Source: Lacticaseibacillus suibinensis (GTDB taxonomy: Bacteria; Bacillota; Bacilli; Lactobacillales; Lactobacillaceae). From it: 64,000 bases of DNA. The notes under the pieces were generated by a model. It had not been told where the DNA came from. It saw only the letters and a list, made by a program, of their open reading frames with translations, and did not search any database. Positions 24,398 through 28,749 of the stretch are shown here, piece after piece; the first letter of the stretch is position 1, and the number at the start of each line of letters is the position of its first letter. The stretch spans positions 62,001-126,000 of the forward strand of contig NZ_RHOK01000006.1 in NCBI RefSeq assembly GCF_003946175.1, given 5' to 3'. Position numbers and translations under genes: made by a program.

Positions 24398-25207
24398 CTA
24401 ACCAAGCAAAACGGCGTCATCGCTGAGTTCGTTGCCGCTTTGGGCTTTGAACAAGTCAAGCAGGTCGGGAATGGTCAAACCGTGCTTCTTTTCAGCCGGC
24501 AAATCGACGACGATGCGGCCATGGTCGAGCATGATCAATCGAGTGCCGTACTTCAAGGCATCCTGCATGTTGTGCGTAATCATCAAGGTGGTGATGTGTT
24601 GCGCGGAGACGATTTGCTGGGTCAGCGCCATGACCGTCGCCGATGTCTGCGGATCCAGCGCCGCGGTGTGCTCATCGAGCAGCAGCAGCTCCGGCAAATT
24701 CAGCGTCGCCATTAGCAAGGTAATCGCTTGGCGCTGGCCGCCTGAGAGCAAGCCAATTTCGGCATCGAGGCGATCTTCCAAACCTAAGTTCAGGCTGGCA
24801 AGTTTTTCCTTCATCAAAGCTAAATCGTCGTGCTTCACGCCGCGGCGCCAGAAGTTGCGCCAGGTGCCGCGCTTGAGCGCCAGCGCCATGTTTTCCTTCA
24901 CGGTGAGCAGCGGTGCGGTGCCGGAGCGCGGATCTTGGAAGACCCGTGAAATCAGCTGGGCACGCTTAGCCACGCTTTGATACGTGACGTCTTGCCCGGC
25001 AATTTTCACTTGGCCCTGGCTGATGGGCAAGGAGCCAGCCACGCTGTTGAGCAAGGTCGACTTGCCGGCCCCGTTCCCACCGATAATGGTGACGAATTCG
25101 CCTGGTTGCAAGGTCAACTCGATGTTCTTCAAAGCGTGATTCTCGTTGGGCGTGCCTTGTTCAAAATACTGATTCAAACGATGGATTTCTAAAGCTGGCT
25201 CTGTCAT
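24398..25207 (-). CDS. ABC transporter ATPase (TrpXYZ-type aromatic amino acid uptake)
   Basis: ATP-hydrolysing subunit of the importer encoded with the next two genes. Walker A is IIGGNGAGKSTLLN (about 38-51), the signature motif LLSGGQRQAITLLM (about 149), Walker B LLLLDEHTAALD (about 171), and the switch His lies in LMITHNMQDAL. The D-E-H order after Walker B, with His after Glu, is seen in this transporter family. The start ATG overlaps the permease stop as TGATG, so the two are translationally coupled. Substrate is inferred from the leader peptides and the family of the binding proteins. Confidence 0.9.
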   Translation of the reverse strand: MTEPALEIHRLNQYFEQGTPNENHALKNIELTLQPGEFVTIIGGNGAGKSTLLNSVAGSLPISQGQVKIAGQDVTYQSVAKRAQLISRVFQDPRSGTAPLLTVKENMALALKRGTWRNFWRRGVKHDDLALMKEKLASLNLGLEDRLDAEIGLLSGGQRQAITLLMATLNLPELLLLDEHTAALDPQTSATVMALTQQIVSAQHITTLMITHNMQDALKYGTRLIMLDHGRIVVDLPAEKKHGLTIPDLLDLFKAQSGNELSDDAVLLG

Positions 25208-26106
25208 CAGTTATTCATCTCCCGTTTATTGGCGCGCCGTGCGCGACTTTGCTTGATTTCCTTTTGCGCCAGCGGTAAGGCCAAGAATACCACTAGCATC
25301 AGTGCATAGAAGAGGCGTAAGTAATTCGGATCCACGCCGAGCTGCAAGACGCCGGCGATAATCAGGCGGTAGATAATCGCGCCGACAATGATCATCACCA
25401 GGCGTTTGCCAAAGCTGACATTGCGAATCAGGATTTCGGCGATGATAATCGCTGACAAGGCAATGACCAAGGTGCCAATGCCCATTGAGACATCCGCGAA
25501 GCCGTTAGTTTGAGCCATTAAACTCCCAGACAAGGCAATCAAGCCGTTGGATAGCATGTAGACAATGATCTTCATGTTGTCATTGTTGACCCCGTTAGCG
25601 GCGGCCATCGCTTGGTTGTCCCCCACGGCGCGTGCCGCCAAACCCATTTCGGTGTTGAAGAAGAACACCAGCAGGCCGATGACAATGGCTAAAATCACCA
25701 CCCCGATGACAATCGTGGTGACGGTGCTATCGCCGATGGTGGCCATCGTGAACACCGTTTTGATATCGGAAAGCAGAGACACATTCGCGGCCTTCATGAT
25801 GAACAAGTTCACCGAGTACAAACCGGTCATGGTCAAAATCCCGGTTAAAAGATCCGGAATTTTCAGCTTGGTGTGCAGCACGCCGGAAACAAAGCCCGCC
25901 GCTGCGCCGCCGCAAAACCCGAGCAAGGTGGCTAAAATCGGGCCGGTGCCTGAAACCAGCTGATGCGCGGTGATGGCAGCGCCTAAGGGAAAGCTGCCTT
26001 CAGCGGTCATATCAGCAATGTCGAGAATCCGGAACGTTAGATAAACCCCGATTGCCATGATGGCCCATAAAAAGCCGACTGAGATATTCGATACCAGGAT
26101 GTCCAT
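25207..26106 (-). CDS. ABC transporter permease (branched-chain/TrpXYZ type)
   Basis: Integral membrane subunit with about eight to nine hydrophobic helices over 299 residues, starting MDILVSNISVGFLWAIMAIG and containing the family pattern ADMTAEGSFPLGAA. The C terminus KEIKQSRARRANKREMNN is a basic cytoplasmic tail. The ATG at 26106 is preferred (GGAGG, 5-nt gap) over an ATG 12 bp upstream that overlaps the ribosome binding site. It lies 35 bp after the binding-protein gene. One permease appears to serve both binding proteins in this region. Confidence 0.88.
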   Translation of the reverse strand: MDILVSNISVGFLWAIMAIGVYLTFRILDIADMTAEGSFPLGAAITAHQLVSGTGPILATLLGFCGGAAAGFVSGVLHTKLKIPDLLTGILTMTGLYSVNLFIMKAANVSLLSDIKTVFTMATIGDSTVTTIVIGVVILAIVIGLLVFFFNTEMGLAARAVGDNQAMAAANGVNNDNMKIIVYMLSNGLIALSGSLMAQTNGFADVSMGIGTLVIALSAIIIAEILIRNVSFGKRLVMIIVGAIIYRLIIAGVLQLGVDPNYLRLFYALMLVVFLALPLAQKEIKQSRARRANKREMNN

Positions 26107-26141
26107 GTTAACCTCCATTAACTAAGTGCTAAGAATGAGAA

Positions 26142-27095
26142 CTATTTCACGTCTGCGTCGGTCAGGTTGAAGGCCTTCATCATTTTTTCGTTCTTGATGA
26201 CCATGGTCTTGGCTGGGGCTTCAACTGGCAGATTTTTGACTTTTTTGCCTTTCAAAATCTTGATGGCGAGTTTGGCCGTTTGACGGCCCAGTTCTTTGTA
26301 GCTGATGCCACGGGTGGCGACCCCGCCGTCCTCCACCATTGTCGAAGCGGCGCAAACGGCCGGGACATGCTTCTTCAGTGACAACTTGGCGACGGTTGGC
26401 ATCGCTGCGGCCACGGTATTGTCGGTGACCAAGTACATCGCGTCACATTTGCCAGCCAACGTTTCGGTGGCAGCCTGCACATCATTGGTCGAAGCAACCG
26501 TGGTGGTGGCGACTTTCAGGCCCAATTGCTTGGCGACCTTGGTGGCGGACTTAATTTGCACCACCGAGTTTTGTTCGGCGGCGTTATAGAGCAGGCCCAC
26601 GGTTTTGGTCTTAGGGAAGAGCTTGAGTAAGTATTTCATTTGGGCCTTAATGTCCACCATATCGGTAACACCGGTGGCATTTTGGTCCGGCTGGCTGGCG
26701 TTAGTGACCAGGCCTGCCGCTTTGGGATCGGTGACGGCGGTGAAGACCATTGGCGTTTCCTTATCCGCCTTAGCTAAGGCCTGCGCAGCAGGGGTGGCGA
26801 TGGCTAAATTAACATCGTTTTTGTCCTGCTTCAGGCGCTGGCTCATGCTTTGCAAATTGGATTGATCGCCTTGGGCATTGACGTAATCGATTTTGATTTT
26901 ATCGCCAGTATAGCCTTCCTTGGCGAGCTCTTGTTCAAAGCCTTTCCGCGCATCATCCAGCGCGGTTTGGTTGATCAGCTGCAAGATGCCGACCTTGACG
27001 GTTTTGGTCTCCTGCGCATTGGTTTTACTTGAGCAGCCCGCTAAGGCCAGTGCGAGAACGGCGGCAAGGCCGATCAATGTGTGTTTCATTTTCAT
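26142..27095 (-). CDS. Substrate-binding lipoprotein 1 of the aromatic amino acid ABC importer
   Basis: Extracytoplasmic solute-binding protein of the TrpX/peripla-binding-like (DUF534) family. The signal peptide ends in the lipobox LALAGC, with the acylated Cys at residue 21. Mature sequence motifs VKVGILQLINQTALDDARKG, IATPAAQALAKAD and VGLLYNAAEQNSV are shared with the paralogue at 27509-28480. It is the first structural gene of the operon with permease and ATPase, behind the Phe-rich leader peptide and attenuator, so phenylalanine is the predicted ligand. AGGGGG precedes the start. Ligand assignment is inferred from the regulation, not from binding residues. Confidence 0.88.
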   Translation of the reverse strand: MKMKHTLIGLAAVLALALAGCSSKTNAQETKTVKVGILQLINQTALDDARKGFEQELAKEGYTGDKIKIDYVNAQGDQSNLQSMSQRLKQDKNDVNLAIATPAAQALAKADKETPMVFTAVTDPKAAGLVTNASQPDQNATGVTDMVDIKAQMKYLLKLFPKTKTVGLLYNAAEQNSVVQIKSATKVAKQLGLKVATTTVASTNDVQAATETLAGKCDAMYLVTDNTVAAAMPTVAKLSLKKHVPAVCAASTMVEDGGVATRGISYKELGRQTAKLAIKILKGKKVKNLPVEAPAKTMVIKNEKMMKAFNLTDADVK

Positions 27096-27150: not shown

Positions 27151-27192
27151 GAAAAGGGCCAGCCATTTGGAAATCATCCAAGTGACTGGCCC
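27151..27192 (-). terminator. Second hairpin-terminator of the Phe leader
   Basis: Minus strand: GGGCCAG-t-CA-c-TTGGA, loop, TCCAA-a-TG-g-CTGGCCC followed by TTTTC. It sits between the leader-peptide attenuator and the binding-protein gene, so transcription must pass two terminators in series. Confidence 0.8.
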
Positions 27193-27205
27193 TTTTTTCC
27201 CGGGA

Positions 27206-27320
27206 AAAAGAAAAAGCCACATGGATGATTGCTACGATCCATGTGGCGGTTAATTGCACGTTAAGATGTGCCGGCCATCATGGATACAAACCCTGCGGTT
27301 TGCATCCATGATGCAAACCG
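27206..27320 (-). promoter_or_regulatory. Phe attenuator: four mutually exclusive pairings ending in a terminator
   Basis: Read on the minus strand directly after the leader stop codon. Segment 1 CGGTTTGCATC (27310-27320) pairs with segment 2 GATGCAAACCG (27296-27306). Segment 2, extended to 27313, pairs instead with segment 3 GGTTTGTATCCATGATG (27276-27292). Segment 3 can pair through ATCCATG with CATGGAT of segment 4 GCCACATGGAT (27237-27247). Segment 4 pairs with segment 5 ATCCATGTGGC (27216-27226) to form the terminator, followed by TTTTTCTTTTT. A ribosome on the stop codon would mask segment 1, favour 2:3 and free 4:5 (termination). A ribosome stalled at the first Phe codons leaves 1:2 free, so 3:4 forms and blocks the terminator. 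Confidence 0.82.
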
Positions 27321-27380
27321 CTATCCGAAAAAGCCGGCGAAAAATGTGTGATTAAGCTGTGTTGTCATTACTCGGTTCAT
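27321..27380 (-). CDS. Phe-rich leader peptide of the aromatic ABC operon
   Basis: A 19-codon ORF, MNRVMTTQLNHTFFAGFFG, stop TAG. Phe codons occupy positions 13, 14, 17 and 18 (TTT TTC ... TTT TTC). AAAGGA lies 10 nt before the ATG, and a 5' hairpin CCAAAG / CTTTGG (27400-27417) precedes it. It has exactly the length and frame of the Tyr-rich leader at 28690-28749, with which it shares TQLN at positions 7-10 and G at 16 and 19. Its role is to be translated, not to yield a product: Phe shortage should stall the ribosome and prevent termination downstream. Confidence 0.85.
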   Translation of the reverse strand: MNRVMTTQLNHTFFAGFFG

Positions 27381-27427
27381 GTTCAACACGTCCTTTACCC
27401 CAAAGATTAACCTTTGGTATGTAAATG

Positions 27428-27456
27428 AGAATACCGCTCATTCAACTAGGCGTCAA
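27428..27456 (-). promoter_or_regulatory. Promoter of the Phe-leader operon
   Basis: Minus strand: -35 TTGACG (27451-27456), 17-bp spacer, -10 TATTCT (27428-27433). Predicted start near 27421, four bases before the 5' leader hairpin. Confidence 0.82.
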
Positions 27457-27508: not shown

Positions 27509-28480
27509 TTATTCGACGGCTTTGGCGGCCTTTTCGACTTGCGCTTGGGTCAGGCCGAACAGCTTCATGCGCTTGGCATCGGTAACCAAAGTGGACTTGG
27601 CCGGCGCTTCAATCGCCAGATCAGACACTTTTTTGCCTTTCAAAATCTTCACGGCCAGTTTGGCCGTTTGCTTGCCCAAATCTTCGTAGTTGATGCCGAC
27701 TGTGGCGACGGCTGCGGGTTTCACCATAGTGGCGTCGGCGGTGATCACAGGCACCTTTTTCGCTTCAGAAACTTTGCCGATGGTTGGCATCGCGGCCGCG
27801 GCCGTGTTGTCGGTTGGGATGTAAATCACATCCGCCTGGCTAGCCAAGGTTTCGGCCGCTTGCTGGACATCGTTGGTGGTGGCAGCGGTTTTAACCACGG
27901 CTTTTAGCCCCAACTTCGCGATTTCTTGCTTGGCGATTTTGATCTGGATCACCGAATTTTCTTCAGCGGCGTTGTACAACAGGCCAATGGTTTTCGCTTT
28001 CGGGAAGAGTTGGTGGGCGAAGTCGATTTGGCCTTTGACATCCACCATGTCGGTCACCCCGGTGGCGTTCTTATCAGGCGCCTTGGTGGATGAGGTCAAG
28101 CCGGCGGATTTTGGATCAGTGATGGCGGTGAACACCATCGGGGTCTGGTTATCCGCTTTGGCCAAGGCCTGAGCGGCTGGCGTCGCAATGGCCAGGTTCA
28201 GGTCGTTTTTATCGCTTTTCAGCCGCGCCGACATGGAGCTCAGATTACCCTGGTCACCTTGGGCATTCAGACTATCAAATTTGATCTTATCGCCTTTGTA
28301 GCCTTCCTTGGCCAACTCCTCTTTAAACCCTTTGTTGGCGGCATTCAAGGCGCTTTGATCGATCAACTGCAAGATCCCGACCTTGACGGTTTGCTTGTTA
28401 CTACTTTTGCTGCCACAAGCGGCTAAGCTCAACGTCAGACTCAATGCGGCAACACCCATTAACATATGCTTGATTTTCAT
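27509..28480 (-). CDS. Substrate-binding lipoprotein 2 (paralogue, Tyr-controlled)
   Basis: Second member of the TrpX-like solute-binding family, 323 residues. The signal peptide MKIKHMLMGVAALSLTLSLA ends in lipobox SLAAC. It is collinear with binding protein 1 (GILQLIDQSALNAANKG, IATPAAQALAKAD, IGLLYNAAEENSV). It has its own promoter and a Tyr-rich leader, so tyrosine is the predicted ligand. It has no permease or ATPase of its own and should share those at 24398-26106. ATG 28480 follows GGGAGGAAATCAAA; an open frame that extends upstream to 28672 only crosses the leader hairpins. No clear terminator separates it from the Phe-leader promoter. Confidence 0.88.
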   Translation of the reverse strand: MKIKHMLMGVAALSLTLSLAACGSKSSNKQTVKVGILQLIDQSALNAANKGFKEELAKEGYKGDKIKFDSLNAQGDQGNLSSMSARLKSDKNDLNLAIATPAAQALAKADNQTPMVFTAITDPKSAGLTSSTKAPDKNATGVTDMVDVKGQIDFAHQLFPKAKTIGLLYNAAEENSVIQIKIAKQEIAKLGLKAVVKTAATTNDVQQAAETLASQADVIYIPTDNTAAAAMPTIGKVSEAKKVPVITADATMVKPAAVATVGINYEDLGKQTAKLAVKILKGKKVSDLAIEAPAKSTLVTDAKRMKLFGLTQAQVEKAAKAVE

Positions 28481-28518: not shown

Positions 28519-28557
28519 AAAAACAGCCGGCCGCGAGGAATCTCCCACACGGCCGGC
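28519..28557 (-). terminator. Second hairpin-terminator of the Tyr leader
   Basis: Minus strand: GCCGGCCG-t-G, loop, C-g-CGGCCGGC followed by TG and TTTTT. It sits between the attenuator and the binding-protein gene, as in the Phe leader, although the sequence is unrelated. Confidence 0.78.
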
Positions 28558-28571
28558 CATCTTCTTTCCGG

Positions 28572-28690
28572 AAAGAAAAAGCCACATGGAAGAGTCTTCT
28601 CATCCATGTGGCGGTTAATGTCATCAAAATACGACGCCTATCATGGATGCAAACCTGCTGCGCGGTTTGCACCCTAGAAGCGCAAGCCGC
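28572..28690 (-). promoter_or_regulatory. Tyr attenuator: four mutually exclusive pairings ending in a terminator
   Basis: Minus strand. Segment 1 GCGGCTTGCGC (28680-28690) begins at the last base of the leader stop codon and pairs with segment 2 GTGCAAACCGC. Segment 2 GGGTGCAAACC (28664-28674) pairs over 11 bp with segment 3 GGTTTGCATCC (28645-28655). Segment 3 CATCCATG pairs with CATGGATG of segment 4 (28599-28612). Segment 4 GCCACATGGATGAG pairs with segment 5 CTCTTCCATGTGGC (28581-28594) as a terminator followed by TTTTTCTTT. The order, spacing and logic are those of the Phe attenuator although several stems differ in sequence. Confidence 0.82.
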
Positions 28691-28749
28691 TATCCGTAAT
28701 AGCCGTAATAATACGAGCGATTAAGTTGTGTTGGATTAAGTTCTGTCAT
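28690..28749 (-). CDS. Tyr-rich leader peptide
   Basis: A 19-codon ORF, MTELNPTQLNRSYYYGYYG, stop TAG. Tyr codons at positions 13, 14, 15, 17 and 18. AAGGAG lies 8 nt before the ATG, and a 5' hairpin GCCAGTT / AACTGGC (28767-28781) sits at the predicted transcript end. Position-by-position match to the Phe leader (TQLN 7-10, Gly 16 and 19, aromatic at 13, 14, 17, 18). It is expected to sense charged tRNA-Tyr by ribosome stalling. The neighbouring tyrS uses a T-box for the same amino acid. Confidence 0.87.
   Translation of the reverse strand: MTELNPTQLNRSYYYGYYG

Follow-up and report, generated by a model that had tools for sequence, protein, structure and literature searches.

Two short open reading frames (ORFs), one ending in a block of Tyr codons and the other in a block of Phe codons, lie ahead of two sister genes for substrate-binding proteins in Lacticaseibacillus suibinensis. 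The question raised by this locus is whether the two leaders sense different aromatic amino acids and, if so, how the RNA behind them could convert this into a decision on transcription. The window, that is, the whole stretch of DNA that was analysed, comprises 64,000 nt of contig NZ_RHOK01000006.1, and both units lie on its minus strand. We consider it likely that both leaders act as ribosome-mediated transcription attenuators, each reading a single aromatic amino acid. On the minus strand the Tyr leader is followed by binding protein 1, and the Phe leader behind it by binding protein 2, a permease and an ATP-binding subunit; the features are:

27509..28480, minus strand: substrate-binding protein 1 (PF04392), with the Tyr leader upstream
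26142..27095, minus strand: substrate-binding protein 2 (PF04392), TrpX-like but below the NCBIfam cut-off, with the Phe leader upstream
25207..26118, minus strand: permease (PF02653), 3' of binding protein 2
24398..25207, minus strand: ATP-binding subunit (PF00005), 3' of the permease
27428..27456, minus strand: promoter-like site of the Phe unit, TTGACG-17-TATTCT, a consensus match only

Binding proteins 1 and 2, the products of sister genes, are 63% identical to each other. TrpX was the top NCBIfam model for both, under its cut-off in each case (332 and 306 bits vs 390). A binding protein of the window was 98% identical to its L. suilingensis counterpart. The promoter scan found 5 sites, with 3.8 expected by chance; upstream of the Tyr unit a TTGACA is readable, yet the scan gave no full site there.

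The two leader ORFs are:

27321..27380, minus strand: Phe leader ORF, MNRVMTTQLNHTFFAGFFG and a stop codon, 19 residues, with a Shine-Dalgarno AAGGA upstream
28690..28749, minus strand: Tyr leader ORF, MTELNPTQLNRSYYYGYYG and a stop codon, 19 residues

The original prediction had described two leaders of equal length that align at TQLN and at two Gly residues and differ by a change from Tyr to Phe at residues 13, 14, 17 and 18. Apart from the direction of the change, all of this held. Both ORFs were found as described, TQLN and Gly 16 and Gly 19 align, and the four aromatic residues are all Tyr in one leader and all Phe in the other. Residue 15 also differs, being Tyr in the Tyr leader and Ala in the Phe leader. 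It likewise held that the two are sister attenuators whose codon blocks are cognate; each precedes a different binding-protein paralogue. As is required of an attenuator, a leader ORF with a ribosome-binding site sits just 5' of the terminator region.

Conservation of the codon blocks was examined across the genus with R1, a covariance model built from 55 genus leaders. The codon columns were included in the model, which biases it towards such leaders. The 55 leaders were drawn from 75 pattern hits by requiring a pair of neighbouring aromatic residues and a stretch resembling TQxN; not included were the YYYGYRG leader of L045, the ordinary leader of L036, a spurious L067 hit, and L042, in which terminator 1 was undetected. 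The R1 element was present in 30/30 Lacticaseibacillus genomes, at 64 places, with 2 or 3 places in 28 of them. In the own genome of the window R1 gave two strong places only and did not match the Trp leader described below. At the genus loci, 83 full R1 matches represented 59 distinct leaders, 34 of the Tyr and 25 of the Phe class.

When leader positions were numbered backwards from the stop codon (-1), the Tyr class (n = 34) showed Tyr in 34 leaders at -8, Tyr in 33 and Asp in 1 at -7, Tyr in 34 at -4, and Tyr in 27, Phe in 6 and Arg in 1 at -3. The Phe class (n = 25) showed Phe in all 25 at -8, -4 and -3, and Phe in 19, Ala in 5 and Ser in 1 at -7. Tyr was absent from the last nine residues of every one of the 25 Phe-class leaders of the genus. 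The non-aromatic departures among the 59 leaders comprised five Ala and a single Arg, Asp and Ser each; most coincided with a codon block shifted by one codon. Random residues at 13, 14, 17 and 18 in relatives, which would have refuted the original prediction, were not seen in these 59 leaders. Synonymous codons (TAT/TAC, TTT/TTC) alternate at the sensing places of the 55 leaders. Hence the cognate-codon run near the end of the ORF, also required of an attenuator, is conserved at the amino-acid level. The same codon pattern was obtained independently of R1, in a scan for ORFs upstream of binding-protein genes that required only a Shine-Dalgarno sequence and three aromatic residues.

Some single leaders and genes of the genus may be recorded here. 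In the Tyr leader of L045 (2536-2675, genome G015), which reads YYYGYRG, Arg replaces the last Tyr, at residue 18, and this is the sole non-aromatic residue at that place among the 59. The notion that the stop codon is always TAG was dropped, TAA being present in 4/30 Tyr leaders. In L007/L025 and L012/L071 (genomes G004 and G016) the binding-protein genes are split into two frames or pieces, and represent either broken genes or assembly errors.

The RNA 3' of both window leaders is alignable and folds far better than shuffled sequences (z -7.4 for Phe and -6.2 for Tyr). In it, segments 1-7 are each complementary to the neighbouring segment (1:2, 2:3 and so on to 6:7), and a segment 0 lies within the ORF:

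27321..27338, minus strand: Phe segment 0, the final 18 nt of the ORF; can pair with segment 3 (GCCGGC with GCCGGC, GGATA with TATCC)
27310..27321, minus strand: Phe segment 1; pairs with 2
27295..27309, minus strand: Phe segment 2; pairs with 1 or 3
27270..27292, minus strand: Phe segment 3; pairs with 0, 2 or 4
27237..27247, minus strand: Phe segment 4; pairs with 3 or 5
27216..27229, minus strand: Phe segment 5, the 3' arm of terminator 1; pairs with 4 or 6; U-tract 27215-27205
27173..27192, minus strand: Phe segment 6; pairs with 5 or 7
27156..27172, minus strand: Phe segment 7, the 3' arm of terminator 2; U-tract to about 27152
28690..28707, minus strand: Tyr segment 0
28679..28690, minus strand: Tyr segment 1
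28662..28675, minus strand: Tyr segment 2
28635..28655, minus strand: Tyr segment 3
28602..28612, minus strand: Tyr segment 4
28581..28595, minus strand: Tyr segment 5, the 3' arm of terminator 1; U-tract 28580-28571
28541..28558, minus strand: Tyr segment 6; forms 13 uninterrupted pairs with segment 5 if wobbles are counted
28525..28539, minus strand: Tyr segment 7, the 3' arm of terminator 2

The pairs fall into two mutually exclusive sets, an odd state (1:2, 3:4 and 5:6) and an even state (2:3, 4:5 and 6:7), the tandem terminators being 4:5 and 6:7. Tandem terminator-like hairpins were found in 55/56 genus leaders, the first hairpin of L042 being missed by the detector, and a T-rich stretch, which the detector demanded, follows 4:5 in the same proportion (55/56 Lacticaseibacillus leaders). 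An intrinsic terminator is thus predicted ahead of the structural gene, as an attenuator requires. The claim of homologous downstream segments with alternative pairs held, and the structure proved to be longer, with a second terminator and the in-ORF segment. The span proposed for the Phe element, 27206-27456, holds only in part: it runs from the Phe leader to terminator 1 and misses terminator 2, which reaches to about 27152. The second terminator of the Phe unit (27152-27196) has A-rich and T-rich ends and could also terminate transcription of the opposite strand.

Coevolution of the segments was assayed by comparing own and exchanged segment partners among 55 genus leaders. Own partners were better than exchanged ones for 1:2 (z -7.0), 2:3 (-9.4), 4:5 (-8.4), 5:6 (-13.1) and 6:7 (-16.0). 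No coevolution was detected for 3:4 by partner exchange in the 55 leaders (z +1.6), and the alignment contained no two-sided change there; this link rests on conservation alone. Off-model control pairs gave -0.5 (1:4), +1.1 (2:5), +0.7 (2:7), +2.6 (3:6) and -4.1 (4:7). The last of these is not null, either in the genus or in 70 family-level leaders (-9.7). Together with a non-null control for 0:3 given below, this indicates that shared descent or composition makes up part of the coevolution signals.

Pairs were also counted in a single alignment of 55 rows, 53 of them distinct; the rows are related and the events are not independent. For the odd state 87.9% of the cells were paired, with two-sided change in 14/31 pairs, and for the even state 95.2%, with two-sided change in 16/33 pairs. 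The covariation score was equalled in 0/500 shuffles for either state, and sliding the partners by 1-3 columns reduced pairing to 31-41%. Mutually exclusive RNA pairs are therefore backed by covariation, except 3:4, which is conserved but does not covary. The earlier claim of changes that preserve pairing held with the same exception.

Segment 0 accounts for a feature of the peptide. Of 164 leaders, 12 of the Trp type and 15 lacking a recognised core were set aside. In the remaining 137, the codon before the stop and its counterpart in segment 3 occurred as GGR with TCC in 65 and as AGR with TCT in 48, in crossed combination in 1 and 2, and otherwise in 21. Own partners of 0:3 were better than exchanged ones (z -17.4 overall; genus -9.2, family -9.8, order -4.1). 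A reversed-sequence control gave -7.1, so composition or descent contributes part of this signal. Pairing of segment 0 with segment 3 is, in our reading, why the Gly codons at 16 and 19 are fixed. The aligned Gly residues are indeed present, as originally noted, but as a sign of peptide function they were set aside, RNA pairing with segment 3 being the better explanation. The Gly/Arg and Gly/Ser positions would thus be bound by RNA pairing, while the aromatic positions carry the specificity.

From these elements the following mechanism is proposed. The short ORF ends in a Tyr or Phe block, segments 1-7 pair with their neighbours, and segment 0 also pairs with 3. When charged tRNA is low, the ribosome would stall on the block, covering 0 and freeing 1, and 1:2, 3:4 and 5:6 would form. 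Terminators 4:5 and 6:7 would then remain unformed and the binding-protein gene would be on. A ribosome at the stop codon would cover 1, giving 2:3, 4:5 and 6:7, and transcription would be off. With no ribosome, 0:3 would enclose 1:2 and transcription should likewise end. In the Tyr and Phe units, which are paralogues, the sensing codons differ and the RNA-paired codons are fixed. A ribosome covers about 15 nt past the first base of the P-site codon. Because of this footprint, a stall on the first aromatic codons would leave segment 1 free, and a ribosome at the stop codon would cover it. Translation, stalling, the polarity of the states, the sensing of charged tRNA and the substrate of each binding protein are all inferred, with no measurement. 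The original claim that the leaders sense Phe-tRNA and Tyr-tRNA is accordingly supported as an inference only.

We examined the proposal on the 55 leaders with a script for co-transcriptional folding, a crude one that used a fixed barrier, window refolding and findpath. At barrier 8, terminator 1 was closed in 18 and 21 of 55 leaders when the ribosome was placed at the stall (RNA free from -11 and -2), and in 52 and 53 of 55 when it was placed at the stop codon (RNA free from +4 and +10). With the RNA free from +30, so that 1 and 2 were both covered, it was closed in 13/55, and without a ribosome in only 34/55. With the RNA free from 0 the figure was 29/55. This alternation of closed and open with the place of the ribosome is as the chain predicts. 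At barrier 6 the figures were 25 for stall vs 42 for stop, of 55. In a set of 19 leaders the separation of states shrank, to 8 vs 11 at barrier 5 and 15 vs 19 at barrier 12. The window Phe leader showed the full odd and even states in one run; with more RNA free, terminator 1 closed even at the stall and terminator 2 stayed open. For the window Tyr leader the states were not clearly separated in either folding run. The script is hence an argument for the architecture, not for each individual leader.

It was then asked how far the element extends. A genus-restricted element proved to be wrong, since the relatives span Lactobacillales: R1 matched in 80/301 Lactobacillaceae genomes from 19/40 genera (E up to 0.01) and in 107/198 Lactobacillales genomes from 35/54 genera (E up to 0.001). 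It also matched in 20/200 genomes of the class, five of these (G496, G607, G634, G643 and G653; three families, best E 1e-8 to 1e-7) lying outside Lactobacillales. We examined 78 places in 72 extra-genus stretches from the family search and a selection of 41 order-level places. Among the latter, leaders were called automatically in 37/41 and by eye in a further three (L196, L220, L231), which makes 40/41. The remaining place, L234, is a T-box ahead of a gene that reads like leucyl-tRNA synthetase; it is a false positive of R1, its E of 6.5e-4 being at noise level.

Coevolution of 5:6 was evident in these relatives also (z -23.5 in 107 family and order places; -17.5 in the 70 of the family and -10.3 in the 37 of the order). 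Control 4:7 gave -9.7, -9.7 and -1.4 in the same sets and is clean at the order level only. The 107 places are what remained of 119 after removal of L188, which lacked terminator 2, and of places where automatic calling gave no leader (seven in the family, four in the order). On inspection leaders were present in the dropped L169, L176, L182 and L183 (Trp), and L179, L186 and L187 look like false R1 matches. In L188 the leader MTNMRKKNSNKFYFWYFG stands before an aminotransferase-like gene, and a second terminator was not found.

The first hairpin was followed by a U-tract in only 43/107 extra-genus relatives. This supports a rival reading in which attenuation does take place but depends on terminator 2 (6:7) alone, 4:5 being a structural switch and the U-tract of Lacticaseibacillus weak or decorative. 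Against it stands the T-rich stretch behind 4:5 in the genus (55/56 leaders, with the detector's requirement and its miss of L042 as above), and on balance we lean away from this reading. The converse idea, that terminator 2 is a spare copy, was rejected, as 5:6 coevolves and many relatives have a U-tract only at 6:7. The simplest history, which is inferred, would take 6:7 as the old terminator, 5:6 as the antiterminator and 4:5 as the anti-antiterminator, with Lacticaseibacillus having added the second U-tract.

Comparison with homologues for Phe, Tyr or Trp variants, as had been suggested, brought out Tyr, Phe, mixed and Trp leaders. Outside Lactobacillaceae the leaders examined are mostly mixed Tyr and Phe (FYFSYFR, YYFSYFR) and precede aroE-like or binding-protein genes. 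Within Lactobacillaceae, YYYYWFFK precedes a transketolase-like gene, and YYYGFYYFR precedes MFS-like or aroE-like genes. The downstream genes are what we take to be aroE, DAHP synthase, transketolase, MFS and trpB genes, from their translated starts and without a database call. In other Lactobacillaceae genera tandem pairs were seen in which a Tyr (L131) or a Phe leader (L156) stands beside a mixed one. The direction implied by "Tyr replaced by Phe" is not shown; because the leaders examined outside Lactobacillaceae are mostly mixed, an origin by splitting of a mixed sensor is no less likely.

The history of the codon classes was followed on a tree of binding proteins. Behind the leaders there were 177 distinct reading frames, 120 of which were binding proteins by BLASTP (>=180 residues), leaving 107 after removal of near-copies. 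Leaders with >=4 Tyr and one Phe were counted as Tyr. The four codon classes needed 12 changes on this tree, vs 56 in shuffles, and the Trp class formed one clade with support 100/100. Retargeting of the codon class is therefore recurrent, with at least 12 changes, and the original account of a duplication followed by retargeting has to be extended in this sense.

The Trp class was examined in its own right. Upstream of the third PF04392 gene of the window's own genome (C22) lies the leader MKQYTTEINVRWQSQL and a stop codon, so that Tyr, Phe and Trp are all represented among the leaders of this genome, one ahead of each of three binding proteins. Trp leaders (GWWQSQL, SWQSQQ, SWQSWR) were present in 12/15 of the third-class upstream stretches examined; none was found in L070, L078 and L081 (3/15). 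The 5:6 pair is weak in the 12 Trp-class leaders (-4.9 to -9.9 kcal/mol), and because of this the full chain may fail in the Trp class. Separately, TGGCAAAGC is almost invariant at the base level in 20 Trp-leader sequences (L072, L056, L130, L182 and others). Its base conservation exceeds what the coding of W-Q-S needs, and a small TGGC/GCCA hairpin over the Trp codon is possible. We regard this as an RNA-level constraint that is unexplained.

The Trp leaders lead to a known orphan. The trpB motif (RF04312) is SRC-39-1, a strong riboswitch candidate with >900 members for which an attenuator was not ruled out (Narunsky et al. 2024, PMC11109978). The window Phe leader resembles it, with 41.7 bits and a match spanning about segments 2 to 5. 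There are two hairpins, the second a terminator, and the motif precedes binding-protein-like and trpB-like genes. However, the score is below the gathering score (41.7 vs 59 bits), and the window Tyr leader had no RF04312 match at E up to 1. RF04312 was above cut-off in 41/198 Lactobacillales genomes, at 43 places. In 22/22 of the over-cut-off places that were examined (of the 43), a Shine-Dalgarno-led ORF with Trp near its end was found, stopping 9 to 21 nt before the motif, with >=2 Trp in 19/22 (TWQNWRR, SWQSWRR). Such an ORF occurred in 1.5% of 4,400 shuffles and in 0/22 cases on the opposite strand.

These results bear on the rival view of the elements as metabolite riboswitches, in which the RNA itself would bind the aromatic amino acid. 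In favour of it, the trpB motif is ranked as a strong candidate (PMC11109978), and riboswitches were proposed for two Streptococcus agalactiae elements, before the gbs1262-1260 and gbs2033-2031 operons (Rosinski-Chupin et al. 2015, PMC4448216). Each paper describes an antiterminator as well as a terminator. The S. agalactiae elements are like those described here in standing before paralogous ABC operons, in premature termination as seen by RNA-seq, in conservation across Lactobacillales, and in a copy before E. faecium aroFBC-tyrA (all PMC4448216), although this likeness was drawn without a sequence alignment to the window leaders. The main text of that paper never uses the term "leader peptide". 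Against a riboswitch, a cognate-codon ORF lies ahead of the RNA in the 59 Tyr/Phe leaders of the genus, in 40/41 order-level places and in 22/22 trpB-motif places. Moreover, the codon class shifts with the paralogue while the RNA stays alike, and PMC11109978 itself leaves an attenuator possible. The coding evidence thus argues against a metabolite riboswitch as the sensor, which we consider unlikely.

A second possibility is a T-box leader, reading uncharged tRNA directly, as the TrpX operons of S. suis are controlled by a Trp T-box (PMC9382623). At Rfam's curated thresholds, neither a T-box nor another known RNA family was found in the window. There was no RF00230 match in the window or in 15/16 of the relatives scanned, and the same scan detects the T-box of L234. 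T-boxes are therefore all but excluded.

A third possibility follows from RF02863 (Enterococcus sRNA 2410), which Rfam types as an sRNA gene: the RNA may act in trans, the leader ORF and neighbourhood being incidental. A terminated leader would resemble an sRNA in RNA-seq, which is the point in its favour. The family is over its gathering score in L131, L156 and L203. The window Phe leader reaches only 32.2 bits, vs a cut-off of 61, and differs from RF02863 also in that the latter is filed as an sRNA gene and not as a leader. Over-cut-off RF02863 places in the 198 genomes coincided with R1 places in 45/53 cases; 8 did not coincide. The coinciding places that were examined carry a leader ORF and a gene behind it, and the RF02863 consensus opens with letters that read -SYFR-stop. 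A trans-acting sRNA is hence very unlikely. The consensus structure of RF02863 includes 0:3 and 1:2.

The preferred reading, ribosome-mediated attenuation, is a mechanism of a known kind. The enterobacterial trp, phe and his attenuators combine a leader peptide of cognate codons, alternative hairpins and an intrinsic terminator, trp and phe having four segments and his six. In contrast, the elements described here have seven segments and one within the ORF, with two jointly governed terminators in this genus. Because of this number, a stalled ribosome would have to free segment 1 rather than cover it. Attenuation by leader peptides is likewise seen in Firmicutes, in the His leader peptides of bacilli (PMC2965389) and the His attenuators of Erysipelotrichaceae and others (PMC9413887). 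Those systems differ in reading histidine, and no paralogous codon switching is described in the relevant passages. A Phe uORF before aroF was reported in Acholeplasma (Brewer et al. 2021, PMC8632094). In the open-access literature searched, which left most subscription papers outside its scope, we found no account of these elements as leader-peptide attenuators, no seven-segment chain and no Tyr/Phe/Trp retargeting. What appears to be new is the odd-numbered chain with an in-ORF segment, the two jointly governed terminators of this genus, and the repeated natural retargeting of codons. The downstream genes look aromatic, being TrpX-like binding proteins here and aroE-like and trpB-like genes in relatives.

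A bolder reading, to which we incline with reserve, takes all of these as one order-wide attenuator family that reads Tyr, Phe and Trp through an eight-segment parity relay. As a single joint claim with the relay, a ribosome that is absent, stalled or at the stop codon would give OFF, ON and OFF. The Gly/Ser and Gly/Arg codons dictated by the RNA would be separate from the sensing codons, and this separation would permit retargeting after duplication (Tyr, Phe, mixed), repeatedly and with the switch intact. The trpB motif and Rfam sRNA 2410 would then be pieces of one family. Such a family would offer a mechanism for a widespread orphan riboswitch candidate, the trpB motif, and would relabel an Rfam sRNA (RF02863). 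From the leader codons alone, the three binding proteins of the window's own genome are predicted to have Tyr, Phe and Trp as substrates, and Tyr and Phe are predicted genus-wide. The leaders also form a natural codon-swap series on one RNA chassis, in which a change of attenuator specificity is directly testable.

Within the genus, six Lacticaseibacillus genomes carry an extra binding protein (~50% identical) with its own Tyr leader, for example YYGGYYG or YYDGYYYG (L049, L050, L054, L063, L069 and L048), so that some species own two Tyr units.
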